DNA from: Desulfobacteraceae bacterium
Lineage (GTDB): Bacteria > Desulfobacterota > Desulfobacteria > Desulfobacterales > SKZT01
Assembly (NCBI GenBank): GCA_011389745.1
Contig: JAABTQ010000005.1
Coordinates: forward strand, 62,001-126,000
Direction: 5' to 3'
DNA length: 64,000 bases
In this document: positions 3,362 through 42,001 of the stretch, piece after piece
Layout: each line of letters begins with the position of its first letter
How positions within the stretch are numbered: the first letter of the stretch is position 1
Notes under the pieces: generated by a model
The model's database searches: none
What the model was told of the DNA's origin: nothing
What the model saw: only the letters and a program-made list of their open reading frames with translations
Made by a program: the position numbers and the translations under genes

Positions 3362-5225
3362 CGTTCCCCCCGGGTTTGATCACTTTTGAAAGTTCATTCA
3401 AAAAGCGGCTCTTTTGATTGAACTGTCCCTTACGATAATTTGCGGAACTTAAATAAAGGTACTTTTCCGACCGGGTGATTGCCACATACATCAAACGCCG
3501 TTCTTCCTGAAGCCCGGAATTGGAATCCACGGATCTCCAGTGCGGAAAAATCTGTTCCTCGCATGCTACCACAAATACGGCCGAGTACTCCAGACCTTTT
3601 GCCGCATGTATTGTCATCAGATTCACACCACTGGCTTTGTCTTGAGCATCCTCGGTGTCTTCCTTAACCAAAGCGGCTTCTTCAAGGTAATCCAAAAGTG
3701 TATTGTTTTTGGATGCGGAATATAAAAGCTGGTCGATATTTTCCTCGCGTGAGGTAAATTCCATTGAACCTGACCGGACATATTCTTTCAGATGTTCCAT
3801 GTAGTCGACTTTTTCAATCACCGCTCTGATGGCTTCATCAGGTCTTAAGGTTTTGATCTCGTCAAGGATACAAATGAGATGATCGAGCGCTTTGTATAAT
3901 TTAGGGGTCAGAAGCTTTCCTTTGATGGCCTTTCTCACGGTCTCCTGAAGCCCTGTATCCCCTTCCCTGTTTTGATAAAACTTTTTGATCGTGGCGGGCC
4001 CGACACCTCGTTTTGGAATATTGATAATCCGCTCAAAAGAAACGTCATCACGGGGAAAAACTGCTGCCGTAATATAGCAGTTCAAATCCAGAATTTCTTT
4101 CCGTTCAAAAAAACCTTTTCCCCCGAGAATTCTGAAAGGAATACGATGAGCACGAAAGGCCTTTTCAAAAGGAAGAGAACAGAATTTGGTTCGGTACAAT
4201 ACGGCCATCCTCCCATAAGGCATCCCCAGATCTTTCAGAACCCCGGCCTTTTGCGCTACCCAGTCGGCTTCCTCTTCATCGCTGAAAAACCCGTGCATTT
4301 CTATATGCCCGCCATCTTTTTGGGAAAAACATTTCTTTTTCATCCGGTCGGCATTTTTTTCAATGAGATCATTGGCCACTCTTACGATCTCATTTGAACT
4401 CCGATAATTTTGTTCAAGACGAAATATTTTGGCCTGATCATATTTTTTCCTGAAAGATAAAAAATGATCCACATTGCTTCCCCGAAATGAATATATCGCC
4501 TGCCAGTCATCGCCCACACAAAACAGCCTGCCCTCCCGCACCAGAAGCCCGGTAAGTTCCTCCTGTAAATTGTTGGTGTCCTGATATTCATCACAAAGAA
4601 CATATTCGAAATGGTTTCGATATTTTTCACGGATGTCCTCGTGGTCTCTGAGCAGATTACGGGTCATCATCAGAATATTGTCAAAATCGACAGCATTGAC
4701 ATTTTTTAATTCTTTTTCATAGTTGTCATATACTTCCCACAACGGAATATGATTGAATTTGGGCCGACGGTCGAAGTACCCGGATGGATTTCCAGAATTT
4801 TTAGCCTTGGATATCTGTGAAAGCACGGAAAGCACATGTTTTTTATCAAAATTCAGCTTGCCGACCAGAATATCTCTTAGCAGTTTTTGCTGTTTGTAGG
4901 TATCATATATCTGAAGCGGGTTGTGATATCCCAGGCGGGAACAGTGTAGCCGCAAGATCTTATAACAGGCCGAATGAAAAGTCCTTACCCATGGAAAACG
5001 GGATATATCCAAACCGGTTTGCTTCACCAGTCGTACTTTCATCTCTTCGGCTGCTTTATTTGTAAAGGTGATCGCCAGAATCCGCTCAGGCTCAAATCCT
5101 TTTTCAACCAGATAAGCGATTTTAGCCGTCAATGTTCTTGTTTTACCCGAGCCGGCCCCGGCCACAACCAGTGTTGGCGTACCTAAATGCTCTACAGCTT
5201 TTTTCTGTTGTTCGGAAAGATTCAT
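3342..5225 (-). CDS. UvrD/Rep-type ATP-dependent DNA helicase (superfamily 1)
   Basis: A 3'-5' DNA helicase of superfamily 1A acting in repair or replication restart. Walker A is AGAGSGKT at residues 22-29, the Walker B/DEAQ-like motif is CDEYQDTN, motif III contains VGDDWQAIYSFRG, and motif VI is EERRLMYVAITR. At 627 aa it is shorter than UvrD (about 720) and closest in size and motif text to Rep-like members. The Q-motif SEQQKKAV directly follows the start. The stop overlaps the enoyl-CoA hydratase start by 20 bases. Rep and PcrA/UvrD cannot be told apart by eye. Confidence 0.93.
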   Translation of the reverse strand: MNLSEQQKKAVEHLGTPTLVVAGAGSGKTRTLTAKIAYLVEKGFEPERILAITFTNKAAEEMKVRLVKQTGLDISRFPWVRTFHSACYKILRLHCSRLGYHNPLQIYDTYKQQKLLRDILVGKLNFDKKHVLSVLSQISKAKNSGNPSGYFDRRPKFNHIPLWEVYDNYEKELKNVNAVDFDNILMMTRNLLRDHEDIREKYRNHFEYVLCDEYQDTNNLQEELTGLLVREGRLFCVGDDWQAIYSFRGSNVDHFLSFRKKYDQAKIFRLEQNYRSSNEIVRVANDLIEKNADRMKKKCFSQKDGGHIEMHGFFSDEEEADWVAQKAGVLKDLGMPYGRMAVLYRTKFCSLPFEKAFRAHRIPFRILGGKGFFERKEILDLNCYITAAVFPRDDVSFERIINIPKRGVGPATIKKFYQNREGDTGLQETVRKAIKGKLLTPKLYKALDHLICILDEIKTLRPDEAIRAVIEKVDYMEHLKEYVRSGSMEFTSREENIDQLLYSASKNNTLLDYLEEAALVKEDTEDAQDKASGVNLMTIHAAKGLEYSAVFVVACEEQIFPHWRSVDSNSGLQEERRLMYVAITRSEKYLYLSSANYRKGQFNQKSRFLNELSKVIKPGGNDGFQRD

Positions 5226-5331
5226 ATTCAGTTTGCGTTACCTTATGGGCAATATATTTATCAAAGTTGGTTAAACATGTCTTTATACCCCATGAGTTCA
5301 GAAATGTAAAAATAACTTTGAAAAGAAAAGT

Positions 5332-6117
5332 TCACATCTTCAGGAAAAACTCAGGATTCAAATCTTCACGGATTCCAAGGCGAGTAAGACAAAAGTCATA
5401 GCGGACAGGATCTTGAGGGGATATTCTCCCAAATTCCCGGGTGATCTCCATAGCAGTTTTCATGTCCGCGCTCCGGCGTGTTGTAAAGCCCAATTGAAGA
5501 CAGATTCTATGCATATGGATATCTAACGGTATGATTAACTGGGTCGGTGAACAGTAATTCCACCCACCGGGGTCCACCGCATCGTGGCGTACCATCCATC
5601 GAAAATAAAGATTAAATCTTTTACAGGCGCTCAATCGCCCCGGAATCGGTACCAAATGTCCGGGACATACGGGACAATACTTTCGAATTTGTTCTGCAAA
5701 AAAAGATAATCCTGAAAAAACAGTTTGTTCCGTTTTATCAATACCGGCATTAAAACATTGTTCCAAAGATCCGAATTCTTGTATCACGCCTTTGATCCCA
5801 ATCACAAATGCGGCCATTTTTTCTGAATTGGCAAACCTGTGGGTGAAACCATTGAGAGACATCTTTATGGTTTCAAAGGAGTTTTCTTCCACATAAACAA
5901 AAGGACTTGTGCCCATTTTCTTTAAAATGGCGGATACGCTTTTTAAAATTCCGGCCACCCTGCCATATGCCAGGCCTGCACTGATGAGGCCCACAATTTC
6001 ACGATCTCTGATATCTTTGTATCCATATAAAAATTCCAGGGGATCCGGATGAACGTATTCACGATGATTTAATTTTTCATAAAGCAGCTCGAATTTCTTT
6101 TTATTCATCTCAACCAA
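5332..6117 (-). CDS. TIGR02757/DUF2400 family protein
   Basis: A 261-aa cytoplasmic protein of the uncharacterised TIGR02757 (DUF2400) family, found in scattered anaerobes and Bacteroidetes. The family-typical opening YVHPDPLEFLYGY..RDREIVGLISAGLAYGR is split across residues 20-55, and the WMVRHDAVDPGGW and PLDIHMHRI segments appear towards the C terminus. Those segments resemble helix-hairpin-helix DNA glycosylase-like proteins, but the role is not established. It lies between the helicase and an IHF-type gene on the same strand, so a DNA-maintenance link is possible but only by position. Confidence 0.85.
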   Translation of the reverse strand: MVEMNKKKFELLYEKLNHREYVHPDPLEFLYGYKDIRDREIVGLISAGLAYGRVAGILKSVSAILKKMGTSPFVYVEENSFETIKMSLNGFTHRFANSEKMAAFVIGIKGVIQEFGSLEQCFNAGIDKTEQTVFSGLSFFAEQIRKYCPVCPGHLVPIPGRLSACKRFNLYFRWMVRHDAVDPGGWNYCSPTQLIIPLDIHMHRICLQLGFTTRRSADMKTAMEITREFGRISPQDPVRYDFCLTRLGIREDLNPEFFLKM

Positions 6118-6150
6118 GGCAATTGCGCTTCAAGGTTTGCTATTTTTTGA

Positions 6151-6438
6151 CTAAAAATGGTTGTTTATTTTTTCCCTTAATTTGCCGCTGCACTTAAACG
6201 TAACCACTCGTCGTCTTTTAAGAATCATATCATCTCCGGAGGAAGGGTTTCGTCCTCTTCTGGCCTTTTTTTCATTGACACTGAATTTTCCAAAACCACT
6301 GATCAAAATATGATCATCTTTTTCCAGTGCCTTTTTCATGGTTTCAATAAGATTTTCCATTAATTCCGAACAATCTCTTTTGGGCAGACCGATATTTTTC
6401 TGAAAAGCATCGATGATGTTCGCTTTTGTAAGGGCCAT
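6151..6438 (-). CDS. Integration host factor / HU-family DNA-bending protein
   Basis: A 95-aa nucleoid protein that bends DNA as a dimer. It opens MALTKANIIDAF as IHF-alpha subunits do, has the ISGFGKFSV core, and carries the beta-arm motif GRNPSSGD where the intercalating proline sits, followed by basic residues that contact DNA. IHF-alpha is the closest match; IHF-beta or HU are less likely from the N-terminus. The ATG is preceded by AAGGAG at 11 bases. The 290 bases upstream contain no gene and include AT-rich stretches suited to a promoter for this gene, but I could not define one. Confidence 0.92.
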   Translation of the reverse strand: MALTKANIIDAFQKNIGLPKRDCSELMENLIETMKKALEKDDHILISGFGKFSVNEKKARRGRNPSSGDDMILKRRRVVTFKCSGKLREKINNHF

Positions 6439-6729
6439 GTTAAGAACATCTCCTTTTGTCTTAAGTTTTAGTTATATAAGTCATTTACTTTCTCAATTTT
6501 TTGAATTTACTGTCAATTCACTTTTATGTCAATAACTAATAATCTTTTAAATGGGCGATAATATAAATTGACAGCCTGGTTTTTCAGCTGCTAAAACCAG
6601 AAACATATCAGCATTGATGTTCAGGGCACAAAATAGGCATCTGCAGGGAATCAGAGTATTGCATAATACCGTTTAAAAGAAATCCGGATTTAAACTAACC
6701 GATATTGCCCGAATATTTTTCGGATTTGA

Positions 6730-8292
6730 GTGATGCAATCAGATAAACAAGAACAAAATAAAAATGGAAAAGACCTGACAGCACACAAACTTGGGACTTT
6801 TGCCGGTGTTTTTACCCCCAGTGCATTAACGATACTGGGTATTATCCTCTTTTTACGCCTGGGTTATGTGGTCGGCGCTGCAGGGCCCGCAAAAGCCCTG
6901 GTGATCATCGCCATGGGGATTTGGCGAGGCCATTGCCGGCTCAGCCCTTATACCCACCAGCACAATATCTCCTCGCCTTTTAGCGGCGATAGCTATGTCC
7001 TTTCTTTTTATTTTTGCATGGATAGGAGCGGATTGGGCCACCAGGTTCCAGTATGTTGTCATGGCATTGCTGGTCGCAGCTCTTTTTTCCTTTTTTGCCG
7101 GGGGTCTGCCCACGTGGAATTCCGGGATTTTTATGGCAAACTGGTCGGCACCGGGTGAGGCCGTTCCCTTTTGGGTGCTGTTTGCCCTTTTCTTTCCGGC
7201 AGTAACAGGGTTCACACAGGGGGTAAGCATGTCGGGAGACCTGAAAGATCCCGGAAAAAGCCTTCCATTGGGTACCTTCCTGGCTGTGGGTGTTTCGATT
7301 GCTTTCTATTTCGGCTCGGCTGTGCTTTTCGCAGGAGTCCTTTCCAATCAGGAGCTGGTGGCTGATTATACAGCCATGAAACGGATTGCACGTTTCAGTG
7401 CGCTCATTGATACAGGTGTCATTGATGCAACACTTTCTTCCGCCGTGGCCTCATTTCTTGGAGCACCGAGAATTTTGCAGTCACTTGCTTCGGATCGTAT
7501 TTTTCCCTTTCTTTCAATTTTTTCCAAAGGTTTCGGACCTGCAGGTAATCCTCGTCGCGCTGTTTTGCTTGCAACCGGTATCGGCTTTGCTGCTGTCTGG
7601 CTGGGAAACCTTGACTTGATTGCACCGGTGGTATCCATGTTTTTTTTGATTTCCTACGGTTTGCTCAACTATGCCACTTATTACGAGGGCCGCACCGCAA
7701 GTCCTTCTTTCAGACCTACATTCAAATGGTTCGATTTTCGACTGAGTTTACTGGGAGCCGTTGCCTGCCTTTTGGTTATGTTGGCCATAGATCCGGTAAC
7801 CAGTATCATCGCCATATCTATCCTGTTTGCCATTTTTCAATACCTTCGGCACACGGCAGCCCCGGCACGCTGGGCCGATAGCAGCCGTGCCCAACACCTT
7901 CAGCGAACAAGGGAGAACCTTCTGGCTGAAAATGTTTCTCCCGAACATCCCAGAGATTGGCGTCCGCAAATTCTGGCATTTTCGGAAGATCCTGACCGGC
8001 GGCCTCCCCTTTTGCGGCTGGCTTCATGGCTCGAAGGCGGAAGCGGCCTGACAACGGTTGTTAAGTTGATGGAAGGCAGAGACCTGCTATTATCCAAAGA
8101 AAAGGAAAAAGTCGAAAGCCGCTTGCACCAGGATATCCAGGATCATAATCCCGCTGCTTTTCCATTAGTGTTGACAACCAGAAACCCTGAAATTGCTGTT
8201 CATACGCACGGGTCAAGGCCGAGGATGTCCAAAAACAAATTGAAGAGGAAAATATAAGTTCTGAAGTAAAATCAGAAAAAAAGGATTCTTAG
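6730..8292 (+). pseudogene. Decayed cation-chloride cotransporter / amino-acid permease-like gene
   Basis: Remains of a bacterial transporter of the APC superfamily (Na-K-Cl cotransporter-like). Frame 1 (from 6730) encodes the N-terminus and first membrane helix (GTFAGVFTPSALTILG). Near 6912 the protein jumps to another frame at GFGEAIAGS, a segment that in intact relatives lies after helices 2-3, so about 50-60 codons are missing. The second frame runs to about 8205 (EIAVHT) and then needs the original frame again for a charged tail (VKAEDVQKQIEEEN) ending at 8290-8292. Two separate out-of-frame deletions therefore fit better than sequencing error. No function is expected. Confidence 0.8.
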
Positions 8293-8353
8293 TTCAAAGC
8301 CTCGTCTGAGGTCTTTTTCGGATAGCTTCATAGTTTCATCTCCCGCTTGCTTG

Positions 8354-9067
8354 TCACGCTTTAACCCATCCCTCGGCCCGGAGTCTTTCCCAGGCAAGCC
8401 TAATATTTGCCGGTTTAAACAAACTTCTTTTGCGATCGTTCCATTCGGCCATTGCAGCAATAGCAGTTTCCGCATCGGAGACTTCGCCGTCATGAATAGC
8501 CGTCCAATGAACCGAGGCTAGCATCTCCATGCCGTAGGGTGTTTCAAACCCATCCACGAGATCGGCCACCCGCTCAATATGGCCTACGGCTTTTGGATTA
8601 TTCCGGAGAAAATGATCGGCCGCCTTGTCGGCGTCCGGAAGCAGGGTAATTTCCACATCCGGTTTCTGGGTATCCCCATATCCCCGGATATGATGCCCCT
8701 CCAAGATTTCCAGAACCTTATTGAGGTTATGAGCGTAGGGTCCATACAGGTGTTTGACATACCGCAGCTTCAGATCCATGCCCGATTCCTGCAGAAAATA
8801 GGCGAGCTTCTGTATCTCCAACAGCGTCAACCGGTATGCGAATCGCGCATACTGCTTCATGAGCTTGATGAGCAAGGCCCGGGCCACAGTCATCTTCGGT
8901 CTTGCAGTACCAACAGGCATATCCTTTGCATCCGGGCTGCCTTTGGGTTCGAAAAGCTTCACCTGAACGTCCGGCATGTTCTGAAACACCGATTCGATCA
9001 TTGCTTTGACCCGGCTCCACTGCAGTCCGCCCAATCCGGAACCCAACTCCATTGCTGTCGTATTCAT
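8354..9067 (-). pseudogene. 3' portion of DarG-like antitoxin (macrodomain remnant plus C-terminal domain)
   Basis: DarG proteins remove ADP-ribose from DNA and neutralise the DarT toxin. Here only the last part of the macrodomain survives (GSGLGGLQW, then FEPKGSPDA), followed by an apparently complete C-terminal domain with RLTLLEIQKLAYFLQESG, HLYGPYAHNLNKVLE and DGFETPYGMEMLASVHW. The N-terminal macrodomain strands that bind ADP-ribose are absent, and upstream bases (9068-9388) show no DarT. An open frame extends to a methionine at 9169 but that stretch does not look like macrodomain. It may still express an isolated DarT-binding domain; more likely it is a relic. Confidence 0.75.
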
Positions 9068-37071: not shown

Positions 37072-37896
37072 TTAATTATGAAATTCTGCTTCTGAATAAC
37101 CATGCCTTACGGCAAGTTTTTCAAACATCTGAGCCAACCCTGCTCCCAGTGTAAAAATTGCCCCATTGTCGAGATTCTTATCCGCAGTTTCATCAAAATA
37201 TACATTTAAACTGGAGGCCAGACCATCCTCGGGCATCCAGTAACATACCATGACAGGAACTTTCGGAAATGGATATAAAATAACGGAAATATCCGATTCA
37301 AACTCTTCATCCACCTGTTTTGCGTTAAACAGATGCACCATATCGTCAAAAAGGGGGGTATATATATCGGCTACACGTTTCATAGGCTCTTCACAACGTT
37401 TACGAAAGAGCGGATAACCTTCTTTTCCATCTTTTAAATCCCTGAACGATACCCAGTTACCCGTTGGCGAAAGTCCTTCCCCGTCGATAATGTAGTTAAG
37501 AAACGGGATCGCCACCCAGGGATTGACATGAATATCCGTATAAATATTACCTTCCTGATCGACACTGAAAGACTTGCCAAGAATCTTGATGGTCAGTTTG
37601 CCGTCCAGAAAACGACCGCCTGTCTTCTTTGCCTGGGCGGCAAGATCCAGGCCTGCTATCTGATCTTTTAGCATTTTTAAGTGTTCATCTCGGTTTTGAT
37701 CAACAATATTATGGTTTCCACTGCAATCACTGTAACGCTCAATGATTTCTCGGTCGAGTTTAGGGCATTCATCAATTGACTTCTGGCCCTTGAAAACCGA
37801 TGCCGCAAATGCGAGACATGTTTTATCACCACACTCCCCGCAATTGGATTTGTCGAGCAATTGGAATATTTCCATGGCATTTTTGATTTGCGTCAT
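37072..37896 (-). CDS. Fe-S cluster protein with DUF3786 domain
   Basis: A 274-aa cytoplasmic protein with an N-terminal [4Fe-4S] module, CGECGDKTCLAFA with a fourth Cys downstream in DECPKL, the pattern seen in corrinoid/CO dehydrogenase-related Fe-S domains, followed by a DUF3786 domain (DIHVNPWVAIPFLNYI, GLSPTGNWVSFRDL). The start at 37896 is fixed by AGGAGG 6-7 bases ahead. Proteins of this type are widespread in sulfate reducers and acetogens and may take part in methyl-transfer or Fe-S maturation; no partner enzyme is visible here. Confidence 0.75.
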   Translation of the reverse strand: MTQIKNAMEIFQLLDKSNCGECGDKTCLAFAASVFKGQKSIDECPKLDREIIERYSDCSGNHNIVDQNRDEHLKMLKDQIAGLDLAAQAKKTGGRFLDGKLTIKILGKSFSVDQEGNIYTDIHVNPWVAIPFLNYIIDGEGLSPTGNWVSFRDLKDGKEGYPLFRKRCEEPMKRVADIYTPLFDDMVHLFNAKQVDEEFESDISVILYPFPKVPVMVCYWMPEDGLASSLNVYFDETADKNLDNGAIFTLGAGLAQMFEKLAVRHGYSEAEFHN

Positions 37897-38045
37897 AACA
37901 TTCCTCCTAATTCTGAATATACCTGTGTGTGAATTACACCCCACCTGGTGTATCATTTTTATAATACATCGATAGTTATTGTAGCCGGATATGTCAACCG
38001 GGAGGAAAGATTTTCAGAAAGCTTGCAAAATCTGTTTTCGGAAAA

Positions 38046-39125
38046 TCAATCATCCCTGTTGATGGCATCGATCAGTGTCCTGAGCCTGGCGAAATGAACT
38101 CGGTTGAAATTCACAAGAAGGCGCGGAAGATCTCGCAAATCAGGCTCGTCATCCTCCTCGGGAAGTGCCCCGGAAAGTCTAATGTTCCCCCCCGGTGAAA
38201 GGATATCGCAAAATTGTTTCCGAATGGTTTCCAGTGTATGGTCGGAAAGACTTTCAACCATTCGGATTACCAGAAGGTCCCGTACGTAACGAAGGCTGTG
38301 GAAACGCCGGTAGAATCGATGAATTCGTTCTACCACATCTTCTACAGACTGAGTCAGCCGAAACAAATTGAGATCCTCATGATCGACGAATCCCAAACCC
38401 GCAAGCCTCTTTTCAAGAAAGTCCAGCCACTTTTTCCAATAGTCACTTCCCGGCGGATCTACCATAAAAACGGGTATCGGGTCCCGTTTGCCGGTCTGAA
38501 TAAGGGTCATGGTTTCCATGCCCTCATCAAGAGTGCCGAAACCGCCTGGAAACAACACAACGGCATCAGCTTCCTTCAGAAAAGCAACCTTTCGATTAAA
38601 AAAATACTTGTAATTAATGCTCCGGGGACTACCCTCCAGGATGGGGTTTGGCTTTTGCTCGAATGGCAGCCGGATGTTGACTCCAAATGAATGTTCCGCC
38701 CCGGCACCCTCATTGACGGCATGCATGATACCTGAACCGCCGCCGGTGATTACCATAAATCCCTCTTTGGACAGCTGCCGGCCCATCTCTTTGGCCATAA
38801 TATAGTTGGGATCTTTATCGGTGGATCGTGCAGAGCCGAAGACCGTTACTTTCCGCCGATCCCGATATGATCTGAAAACCTTTGAGGTAAACCTCATTTC
38901 TTTGAGGGTGGAGTTCATGAGTTTGAGATCTTTCCGGTCAGTGTTTTCCTGTCCGGCCTTGAGTGCGGCAAGTATCAGTTCCCGCACAATATCGGTTTGG
39001 TCAATCCCGCCAACCATGGCCATCAATTCGTCAATAGCCCTGTCTGCTTCTCCGTTGGTACGGGTAAAATGAAGCTCGATCAGTGCATTATTTTTGAATT
39101 TAAAAATCTGTTTTTCAGTGGTCAA
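38046..39125 (-). CDS. LOG-family nucleotide 5'-monophosphate nucleosidase-like protein
   Basis: A 359-aa Rossmann-fold protein with the LOG signature PGGFGTLDE and the earlier GGGSGIMHA; members cleave cytokinin ribosides or nucleotide monophosphates (PpnN-like). A unique start is a TTG at 39125 preceded by AAGGAGG with a 6-base gap; this opens MTTEKQIFKF. An upstream in-frame ATG at 39215 exists but has no ribosome site. The N-terminal ~120 residues (with EADRAIDELM) form an added helical part and the C-terminus a short helical tail. Specific reaction not assignable. Confidence 0.85.
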   Translation of the reverse strand: MTTEKQIFKFKNNALIELHFTRTNGEADRAIDELMAMVGGIDQTDIVRELILAALKAGQENTDRKDLKLMNSTLKEMRFTSKVFRSYRDRRKVTVFGSARSTDKDPNYIMAKEMGRQLSKEGFMVITGGGSGIMHAVNEGAGAEHSFGVNIRLPFEQKPNPILEGSPRSINYKYFFNRKVAFLKEADAVVLFPGGFGTLDEGMETMTLIQTGKRDPIPVFMVDPPGSDYWKKWLDFLEKRLAGLGFVDHEDLNLFRLTQSVEDVVERIHRFYRRFHSLRYVRDLLVIRMVESLSDHTLETIRKQFCDILSPGGNIRLSGALPEEDDEPDLRDLPRLLVNFNRVHFARLRTLIDAINRDD

Positions 39126-39396
39126 GCATTGCCTCCTTATCCTTAAATATAAAAGTTTAATTTTCGTATGTATGGAGAAAAGTGAAAATTTGTATATTAT
39201 TAAAATTTCATCCACATTATTAATTTCTCAAAATCATATCACAAATTTTAAAAAGAAAAAAACTTCCCGGCAAAGAAGTTTTCACGTTCAGACTCCCTCC
39301 TTATTTGACACCTATCGGTTCGTTCCATATATTGTCACCATAATAACCGGTTTTGGGCAGCATCAACGTGCAGGCTATATAGAGGAAGCAATTTAC

Positions 39397-40458
39397 ATGA
39401 TGATTAAAAATTTGTTCGGTAAACATACATTGACAAGCCTTGCCAAGACTTGTGGTTGAGCGGCAAAAATCAGCCCGGTCGGGCTAAATGAATTACTGGC
39501 ATCCCTTCCTGTGAATCAGGATCCGAACCTTCTGGTGGGATTCGGATCAAACGACGATGCCGGTGTATACCGTATCACCGATGAGATCGCCATTATAACC
39601 ACAGCGGACTTTATCACACCACCGGTGGATGACCCCTTTCTGTTCGGCCAAATTGCCGCTGCAAACGCCATAAGTGATGTATACGCTATGGGTGGAAAAC
39701 CCCTAACCTGCTTGAACCTGGTGGGATTTCCCTCCAAAAAGCTTTCTCCGGGGATTCTTCATGGAATTGTTGCCGGTGCACTGGAAAAGATAACCGAATC
39801 CGGGGCGGTCCTTGCCGGAGGACACACTACGGAAGACGATGAACCCAAATTCGGCCTTTCAGTTGTCGGGGTCGTTCATCCTGAAAAAATTTGGACCAAC
39901 AGCAATGCCAGGCCTGGGGATGCTCTTTTGCTGACTAAACCGATCGGAAGCGGTGTTCTGTTCAATGCCAATCGCAAAAAACTGGTTTCCCAGGAGGCAA
40001 TGACAGAATGCACAGATATTCTCATCACCTTGAATAAGATCGCTTCCGAGGTCATGCAAGACTTTGAAATCCACTCCGTCACTGACATCACCGGATTCGG
40101 TCTTGCAGGACATAGCTTCGAGGTGGCCAGGGCTTCACAGGTGACTTTCAAAATTATGGTGGACAGTTTGCCCATTATGCGCGAAGCCCTTGAAATGTAT
40201 AAAAAGGGAATTAATACCGGCATGAATTCATCCAACCGGGAACTGGTGAAAGAAATTGCTTTGTTTAAAAAAGCTTTTCCTCCATGGCATCAGGAAATTC
40301 TCTATGATCCCCAAACCAGTGGCGGTCTCATGGTTTCATTGCCTGCCAACCAGTCGGAAACATTACTCAAAACACTTCACAAGCATGGGGTCAAGCGAGC
40401 CTGCATAATCGGTAACGTTATAGAATTGCAGGATAGAACGTACTTAGTGTTCGAATAG
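39397..40458 (+). CDS. selD: Selenide, water dikinase with in-frame UGA (selenocysteine)
   Basis: SelD makes selenophosphate from selenide and ATP for selenocysteine synthesis. A start at the GTG 39511 gives 315 aa and lacks the glycine/Cys loop. The same frame is open upstream through a single TGA at 39457-39459 to ATGs at 39397 and 39400, with GAGGAAG upstream. The read-through text is SLAKTCG-U-AAKISPVGLNELL, matching the family opening where the catalytic position is Cys or Sec (E. coli GAGCGCKISP). Sec would be residue 21 of 353. The rest is standard: LAGGHTTEDDEPKFGL, SVTDITGFGLAGHS, YDPQTSGGLMVS. A SECIS-like hairpin follows the UGA. Confidence 0.9.
39460..39495 (+). promoter_or_regulatory. 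Bacterial SECIS-like hairpin of selD
   Basis: Directly after the UGA codon, AGCCC-GGTC-GGGCT (39472-39485) can pair perfectly over five bases with a GGUC loop. The first loop G lies 17 bases after the UGA, within the usual distance of a bacterial SECIS, and GGUC occurs in the loop of the E. coli fdhF element. A flanking UCA/UGA pair may extend the stem. Pairing is seen directly; SelB binding is inferred. Confidence 0.65.
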
Positions 40459-40624: not shown

Positions 40625-42001
40625 GTGAAAAAAATAAAAATTCTCATAATGGCGGTCAGTTTGCTCCTGACACCTTTAATATACCAGGTGCAGTCAGCCC
40701 AAAATCCCGGCACACCACCTCCGGTTGCTTCCATACTGGTTCGCCAGGGCGATTTTGCACACAGTTTGCTGGAAATATTGGAATTGGATACGGCTTATTC
40801 AGAACCGCAGGCGCTGGAAATGCTGACTGAACTCGGGATTGCTCCGAAAAACGGATGGATCTCGGATTACCCCATGACACCCGACATCATCGGCGAATTA
40901 CAGGATGCCGTGGCAAGTGCCTCGGATAATGGATATCTGACCATAACCCGCCCAGAGGCGTTAAACCTTTTTCAAACCCTTGTTGCGGATTATGGATTGC
41001 CGATTGCTCCGGATCATAGTCCTGAAAATTACAACGAAACTCCACCATCCTTTGGATACTATAATTACACAGAACCGACGGTAATCAACAACTACTATCA
41101 CCATAGCGGACCCCCGGTGATCACATATTATCCACCCCCTTACGGGCATTATCACCTCTACAGTTGGGTTCCATATCCATTCTGGTGGGAAAATTTTTGG
41201 TTTTCAGGTTATTTTGTGTTGAATGATTTTCACAGAACTTCACGTGTTGTCATTCTTAACAGGCGTGGGTACAAAAAACATTTCAGAAGTCACAAGAGTG
41301 GCTTTGGGGTGGTCAGCAATCGCTCAAAAAGATATTACCATCCTAAAAAAGGTTTTGCAGTTTATCCCTCGAAACGAAAATTTGAAAAAGATTTTCGTTC
41401 AGGAAGCAACACAGGCAGACGATGGTCCAAACCGCATAAATCCGGAATCAGAGATAAGTCACGGTTTTTGAGACATGGTCCCGAACAAAAAGGCGGTTCC
41501 GGCAAAAAGGCTTTCCTTCGGGGTGATAACCGTTCCAATCGTTCCAATGACAAATTCCGCAATGATACAAGGCGTCAAATCAGTAATCGTTCTTCGAAAA
41601 ATCCCAGGCAACTAAACCAATGGATGGAGAGAAGAGGAACCCGCAGCAGAACGCGAACCGGAAACAATTCACCGGAAATAAAGGGACCCCGAAATAACCG
41701 TGGTTCCGTAAATGCTCCCCGTAATAATAACACTGCCATCCATGAAAATCGTCAAACCAACAACCGTGGTATCCGCGATAACCGCATTCATAACTTTCGT
41801 GAAAAGCGATTCCGGGATAATCGATTCCGTGATAATCGATTCCGTGATAATCGTCGTGACAACCCTGTTTTTCCCCAAAACCGCTCCAACACTGTTCGTG
41901 AAAATCGCAACCCTGTTGTACATGAAAATCGGAGAAGTGTTGACCGCTCCCGTTCCTTTGAAGGAAACCGATCTTTTCAAGGACGTGATCGCAGCTTTTA
42001 A
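40625..42001 (+). CDS. Secreted Arg/Asn-rich repetitive protein
   Basis: A 458-aa exported protein of unknown function. A signal peptide (hydrophobic 6-20, cleaved near QSA) is followed by a globular stretch (30-130) and a Tyr/Pro/His-rich segment (YYHHSGPPVITYYPPPYG). The second half is low-complexity and strongly basic, built from Asn-Arg-rich text such as FRDNRFRDNRFRDNR. There is no catalytic motif that I recognise. It looks like an envelope or extracellular structural or nucleic-acid/anion-binding protein. A stable hairpin follows 8 bases after the stop. Confidence 0.75.
   Translation: MKKIKILIMAVSLLLTPLIYQVQSAQNPGTPPPVASILVRQGDFAHSLLEILELDTAYSEPQALEMLTELGIAPKNGWISDYPMTPDIIGELQDAVASASDNGYLTITRPEALNLFQTLVADYGLPIAPDHSPENYNETPPSFGYYNYTEPTVINNYYHHSGPPVITYYPPPYGHYHLYSWVPYPFWWENFWFSGYFVLNDFHRTSRVVILNRRGYKKHFRSHKSGFGVVSNRSKRYYHPKKGFAVYPSKRKFEKDFRSGSNTGRRWSKPHKSGIRDKSRFLRHGPEQKGGSGKKAFLRGDNRSNRSNDKFRNDTRRQISNRSSKNPRQLNQWMERRGTRSRTRTGNNSPEIKGPRNNRGSVNAPRNNNTAIHENRQTNNRGIRDNRIHNFREKRFRDNRFRDNRFRDNRRDNPVFPQNRSNTVRENRNPVVHENRRSVDRSRSFEGNRSFQGRDRSF
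41807..41851 (+). repeat. 15-bp tandem repeat coding FRDNR
   Basis: Three units of 15 bp (CGATTCCG[G/T]GATAAT) lie head to tail in frame, each encoding RFRDN; a fourth, degenerate unit follows. Adjacent diverged copies suggest this part of the secreted protein grew by slippage. Confidence 0.85.

Follow-up and report, generated by a model that had tools for sequence, protein, structure and literature searches.

The window analysed here, a stretch of 64 000 nucleotides from the genome of a Desulfobacteraceae bacterium, carries on its forward strand a gene for selenide, water dikinase (SelD) at 39397–40458 (stop-codon at 40456–40458), whose frame is open throughout except for a single internal TGA at 39457–39459. 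Read through this codon from the ATG at 39397, the gene would encode a protein of 353 aa with selenocysteine (Sec) as residue 21. A Shine–Dalgarno-like GAGGAAG, read from the sequence, precedes the ATG (39382–39388, +), and a sigma-70-like promoter (TTGACA-17-TATATT, 11/12, a consensus match only) lies at 39305–39333 (+). The earliest start downstream of the UGA is a GTG at 39511, which has no Shine–Dalgarno-like sequence ahead of it, and the product that standard gene calling would give from there (39511–40458, +; 315 aa) lacks residues 1–38 and with them the loop carrying Sec and Lys. An earlier note on this DNA had described just this arrangement, namely a frame extending upstream through exactly one TGA, a SelD devoid of its catalytic loop if translation began beyond the UGA, and an annotation shortened by about 38 residues, and our analysis bore it out.

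The read-through product matched the NCBIfam model TIGR00476 with 369.7 bits (cut-off 125) over model positions 2–309 of 311 and contained the Pfam domains AIRS and AIRS_C; by this full-length match above the equivalog cut-off, the gene is predicted to encode SelD. Its N-terminal loop reads G-U-A-A-K, with Sec21 followed by a lysine at +3 (Lys24), and the text surrounding the TGA (SLAKTCG-U-AAKISP) aligns with the opening of the SelD family, with Sec falling, as the note had proposed, in the position occupied by Cys or Sec; this is also the Cys/Sec column of the Escherichia coli and Aquifex alignments.

Just 3′ of selD lies an ORF of 458 aa (40625–42001), rich in Arg and Asn, in which a signal-like start is followed by short repeats and for which no Pfam match was obtained. 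On the other side, a LOG/lysine-decarboxylase-like gene (38046–39128) is divergent from selD and lies near a gene (37072–37956, −) whose DUF3786 product has an Fe-S domain at its N terminus. When 545 in-frame TGAs were scanned by codon score, no other convincing selenoprotein gene emerged in the window, and a search of the window against Rfam gave nothing above threshold.

The UGA codon in related SelD proteins

Sec21 and Lys24 correspond to Cys17 and Lys20 of E. coli SelD, both by alignment and by the match to the solved structure (PDB 3u0o; window residues 12–341, E = 8e-63). The structure match does not depend on the E. coli sequence used in the alignment, and both gave the same correspondence. 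The E. coli enzyme differs in having Cys instead of Sec, and in that its neighbouring Cys is at +2 (C-G-C) whereas that of the window protein is at −2 (C-G-U). Sec21 also aligns with the catalytic position of Aquifex aeolicus SelD (PDB 2yye/2zod; 217.6 bits, E = 2e-63), a member of the same fold family in which this position is likewise followed by A-A-K, although Cys at −2 is missing (SSGCAAK versus TCGUAAK). The solved Aquifex chain reads GCAAK there, the native residue being Sec. Cys at −2 of Sec (C-x-U) was found to be specific to the clade of the window protein, while the SelD types of Bacillaceae carry Cys at +2 (U-x-C) and the type of the second SelD described below carries neither.

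SelD relatives from Paenibacillus, Cohnella, Brevibacillus and Lacrimispora have TGC or TGT in the Sec column, so that the comparison with Cys/Sec forms suggested by the earlier note places Cys exactly where the window has UGA. SelD was present in 131 of 146 genomes of the same order, and every match listed that covers the Sec position contained exactly one TGA; the two listed matches devoid of TGA are fragments beginning after that position. A single TGA in SelD is also found, with few exceptions, throughout the phylum, which was recognized from its named relatives as Thermodesulfobacteriota. Relatives starting only after the UGA, which would have spoken against the note, were not what we observed: the residues 5′ of the TGA are conserved, with L−9, L−6, T−3, C−2 and G−1 being 100% identical among 27 relatives of the window's clade, and the Cys forms have their Cys at the UGA column. 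UGA 39457–39459 is very likely read as Sec.

A conserved hairpin downstream of the UGA

A hairpin typical of bacterial SECIS elements (AGCCC-GGUC-GGGCU, 39472–39485, +) follows the UGA, with a perfect 5 bp stem (39472–39476/39481–39485), a 4 nt loop (GGUC, 39477–39480) that has G as its first base, and a folding energy of −8.3 kcal/mol. The earlier note had placed this hairpin 17 bases after the UGA, a distance which holds for the loop, whereas the stem begins after 12 nt. The published model of bacterial SECIS elements specifies a stem of 4–16 bp, a loop of 3–9 nt with G in the first two positions, a UGA-to-loop distance of 16–37 nt and a minimum free energy of at most −7.5 kcal/mol (PMC13188914, Fig. 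2A), and the window hairpin agrees with the model in all these items. Its folding energy, however, was no better than that of shuffled sequences (z = −0.04) and did not differ significantly from that of codons resampled at fixed amino acids (z = −0.49). As folding energy alone is not significant, the case for a SECIS element rests on comparison.

For 27 SelDs from the window's clade, conservation could be ranked over 72 four-fold silent columns. Codons +6, +8 and +7 downstream of the UGA, whose bases make up the inner part of the stem and the loop, had their silent sites at ranks 1, 2 and 4. Compensated pair changes were observed from C-G to U-A in one sequence (L054) and from C-G to G-C in three others (L102, L105 and L106), and in L109 the pair changed from C-G to U-A was kept at the cost of replacing Pro by Ser and Gly by Glu. 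In sequences with Asp or Glu in place of Ser at codon +5, Leu at codon +9 is encoded by CTC in 14/15 cases, as against 3/20 otherwise, so that a shifted stem can form. In the 19 Ser-type sequences, 94.7% of the cells pair and three pairs are changed on both sides; their covariation score was reached by none of 500 shuffles in a control that keeps sequence relatedness, and slid versions of the hairpin pair in only 17–63%. Other SelD types have a conserved hairpin of their own at the same place. The structure of the hairpin therefore appears to be under selection beyond the protein code.

The CCGGTCGGG core of the hairpin recurs in six window-type Sec-SelDs (L099, L100, L102, L105, L106 and L107) from assemblies labelled Anammoxibacter, Calditrichia, Acidobacteriota, Gemmatimonadetes and Verrucomicrobiales, indicating either wide transfer or binning errors. 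On the opposite strand, the hairpin (39470–39487, −) resembles an intrinsic terminator, a stem followed by TTTTT, and such sites occur at chance level in the region.

Selenium machinery and a second Sec-selD gene

The assembly to which the window belongs (3.6 Mb, 99.9% complete, 2.5% contamination) contains selA (601 bits), selB (373 bits) and a tRNA-Sec with the anticodon UCA (74 bits), the set that the note had named as a check on its reading. Neither ybbB, the marker of selenouridine, nor yqeB, that of the selenium cofactor, was found in the genome. With these two absent and the Sec set complete, no known use of selenophosphate other than Sec decoding was found there.

A second selD gene, whose product is 43% identical to the window SelD, was detected on another contig of the same genome (C30; L001:1480–3211). 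It also contains one TGA, within SGAGUASKLSP, and is followed by yedF, encoding TusA and DsrE domains. We refer to the type of this second SelD as SD1, to that of the window SelD as SD2, and to the sister group of SD2 as mid. In a tree of 146 SelDs, the window SelD and the types nearest to it formed a clade of 66 rows with an SH-aLRT support of 100 and a long stem, and the clade of the second SelD lies apart from it. The two clades occur together in a minority of relatives; at least two SelD matches were present in 16/146 genomes of the order sample, and a genome of the same genus (G043) carried the yedF-linked type only. Contamination was rejected as an explanation for the additional selD, as the window fits the contigs carrying selA, selB, tRNA-Sec and the other selD in GC content and four-letter make-up. 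The absence of ybbB and yqeB from the genome likewise led us to discard selenouridine or a selenium cofactor as the reason for a second SelD. A mobile origin received no backing from plasmid and phage collections, which held no relative at ≥60% identity.

selA was present in all 44 genomes checked, whichever SelD type they carried. Full-length yedF, on the other hand, was found in 21/22 genomes with a strict SD1-type SelD and in 3/4 with a third, SD1-related type, versus 1/18 with only SD2 or mid, where two more gave partial matches. Pooling SD1 and the third type (24/26 versus 1/18) gave a Fisher p of 4e-9, uncorrected for the relatedness of the genomes. yedF adjoins SD1 in 10 of 12 loci and no SD2 gene, except in L061, where both SelDs are neighbours. 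In this locus (relative G001, 4998–8844), about 2 kb of a single contig separates the two SelD types, and both yedF and a gene for a C-GCAxxG-C-C protein are located in between.

No conserved operon was detected around SelD genes of the window's clade in 20 relatives. In five of these 20 (L060, L061, L066, L068 and L078), a C-GCAxxG-C-C (seleno)protein gene lies directly 5′ of the window-type selD; it corresponds to TIGR01909 in the three that were scanned, and is missing at that place in the window.

Discussion

The gene in the window is, with a probability that we put at about 97%, a selD encoding a Sec-containing selenophosphate synthetase, and the proposal of the earlier note that this SelD is itself a selenoprotein is supported by the conserved TGA, the exchange of Cys and Sec in its column, the hairpin and the Sec machinery of the genome. 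By analogy with established knowledge of the family, the ribosome would start at ATG 39397, and SelB bound to the hairpin just 3′ of UGA 39457–39459 would deliver Sec-tRNA(Sec), so that translation runs on to 40458. Sec21 and Lys24 would then form the catalytic selenium-binding loop of an enzyme that, as expected from the chemistry of the family, converts selenide and ATP into selenophosphate, which SelA would use in loading tRNA-Sec, also with the Sec that SelD itself requires.

Since Cys forms of SelD exist, the TGA might in principle be a sequencing or assembly error for TGC or TGT. This is scarcely credible, as independent genomes throughout the order and the phylum carry the identical TGA, and a Cys codon would have no need of the conserved SECIS-type hairpin. 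A true stop, leaving selD as a pseudogene or as a gene starting at GTG 39511 while the second selD does the work, draws on the presence of that second, complete Sec-selD and on the same-genus genome that has the yedF-linked type only. We nevertheless consider it highly improbable: GTG 39511 lacks a Shine–Dalgarno sequence and a start there forfeits the catalytic loop, the residues before the TGA and the silent sites of the hairpin are conserved among the relatives, and 12 relatives that apparently have only SelDs of the window's clade still have selA.

Reading the UGA as Sec is a correct observation and an ordinary one, because TGA-bearing SelD is the rule across the order and the phylum and Sec-SelD has long been established (PMC1794560; PMC4561486). 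Syntrophobacter, Desulfotalea, Desulfovibrio, Geobacter and others are among the Deltaproteobacteria with a listed Sec-SelD (PMC1794560); that table gives SelD without copy number, whereas the genome studied here has two Sec-SelDs. This is the less ordinary part, a single genome with Sec-selD genes that descend from two separate, old branches of the SelD family, and the best-supported account of it is an ordinary Sec-SelD accompanied by another Sec-SelD of ancient divergence. The literature searched, which covered a minority of the subscription papers, yielded no prokaryote described as having more than one Sec-selD. For a pair of selD genes within one prokaryotic genome, the single earlier record that we found there is that of Photobacterium profundum, with a Sec-type gene beside selAB and a Cys-type gene beside ybbB (PMC1273633). 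It resembles the present genome in having two selD genes and differs in that one is Sec- and the other Cys-type, whereas here both are of the Sec type and ybbB is absent.

A division of labour between the two Sec-SelD types, which would add to this account and not replace it, is possible, though we regard it as rather unlikely: the YedF-linked type would serve one route of selenium delivery, and the C-x-U type another, or other redox or selenium conditions. It is favoured by the deep and well-supported separation of the clades, by the presence of yedF with strict SD1 and its near absence with SD2 or mid only in genomes that all have selA, by its position adjacent to SD1 and not SD2, and by the clade-specific Cys at −2; neither selenouridine nor a selenium cofactor explains the second copy. 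Redundancy after horizontal transfer would look alike, however, and is the simpler alternative. Moreover, the status of having SD2 only was drawn from metagenome-type assemblies, and the genomes are related, so that the yedF count is not one of independent events.

For annotation, the present results mean that a standard gene caller drops 38 residues of SelD, the catalytic loop among them. The delivery of selenium to SelD in the cell has been described as incompletely known (PMC13188914). It is conceivable, though in our view rather unlikely, that bacteria of the sulfate-reducer type possess two anciently diverged Sec-SelDs with different jobs, one coupled to YedF and the other a YedF-independent C-x-U form, each needing the Sec machinery that it feeds. 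Genomes with both Sec-SelDs, or with one type only, would make it possible to test if YedF is dedicated to one of the two types.
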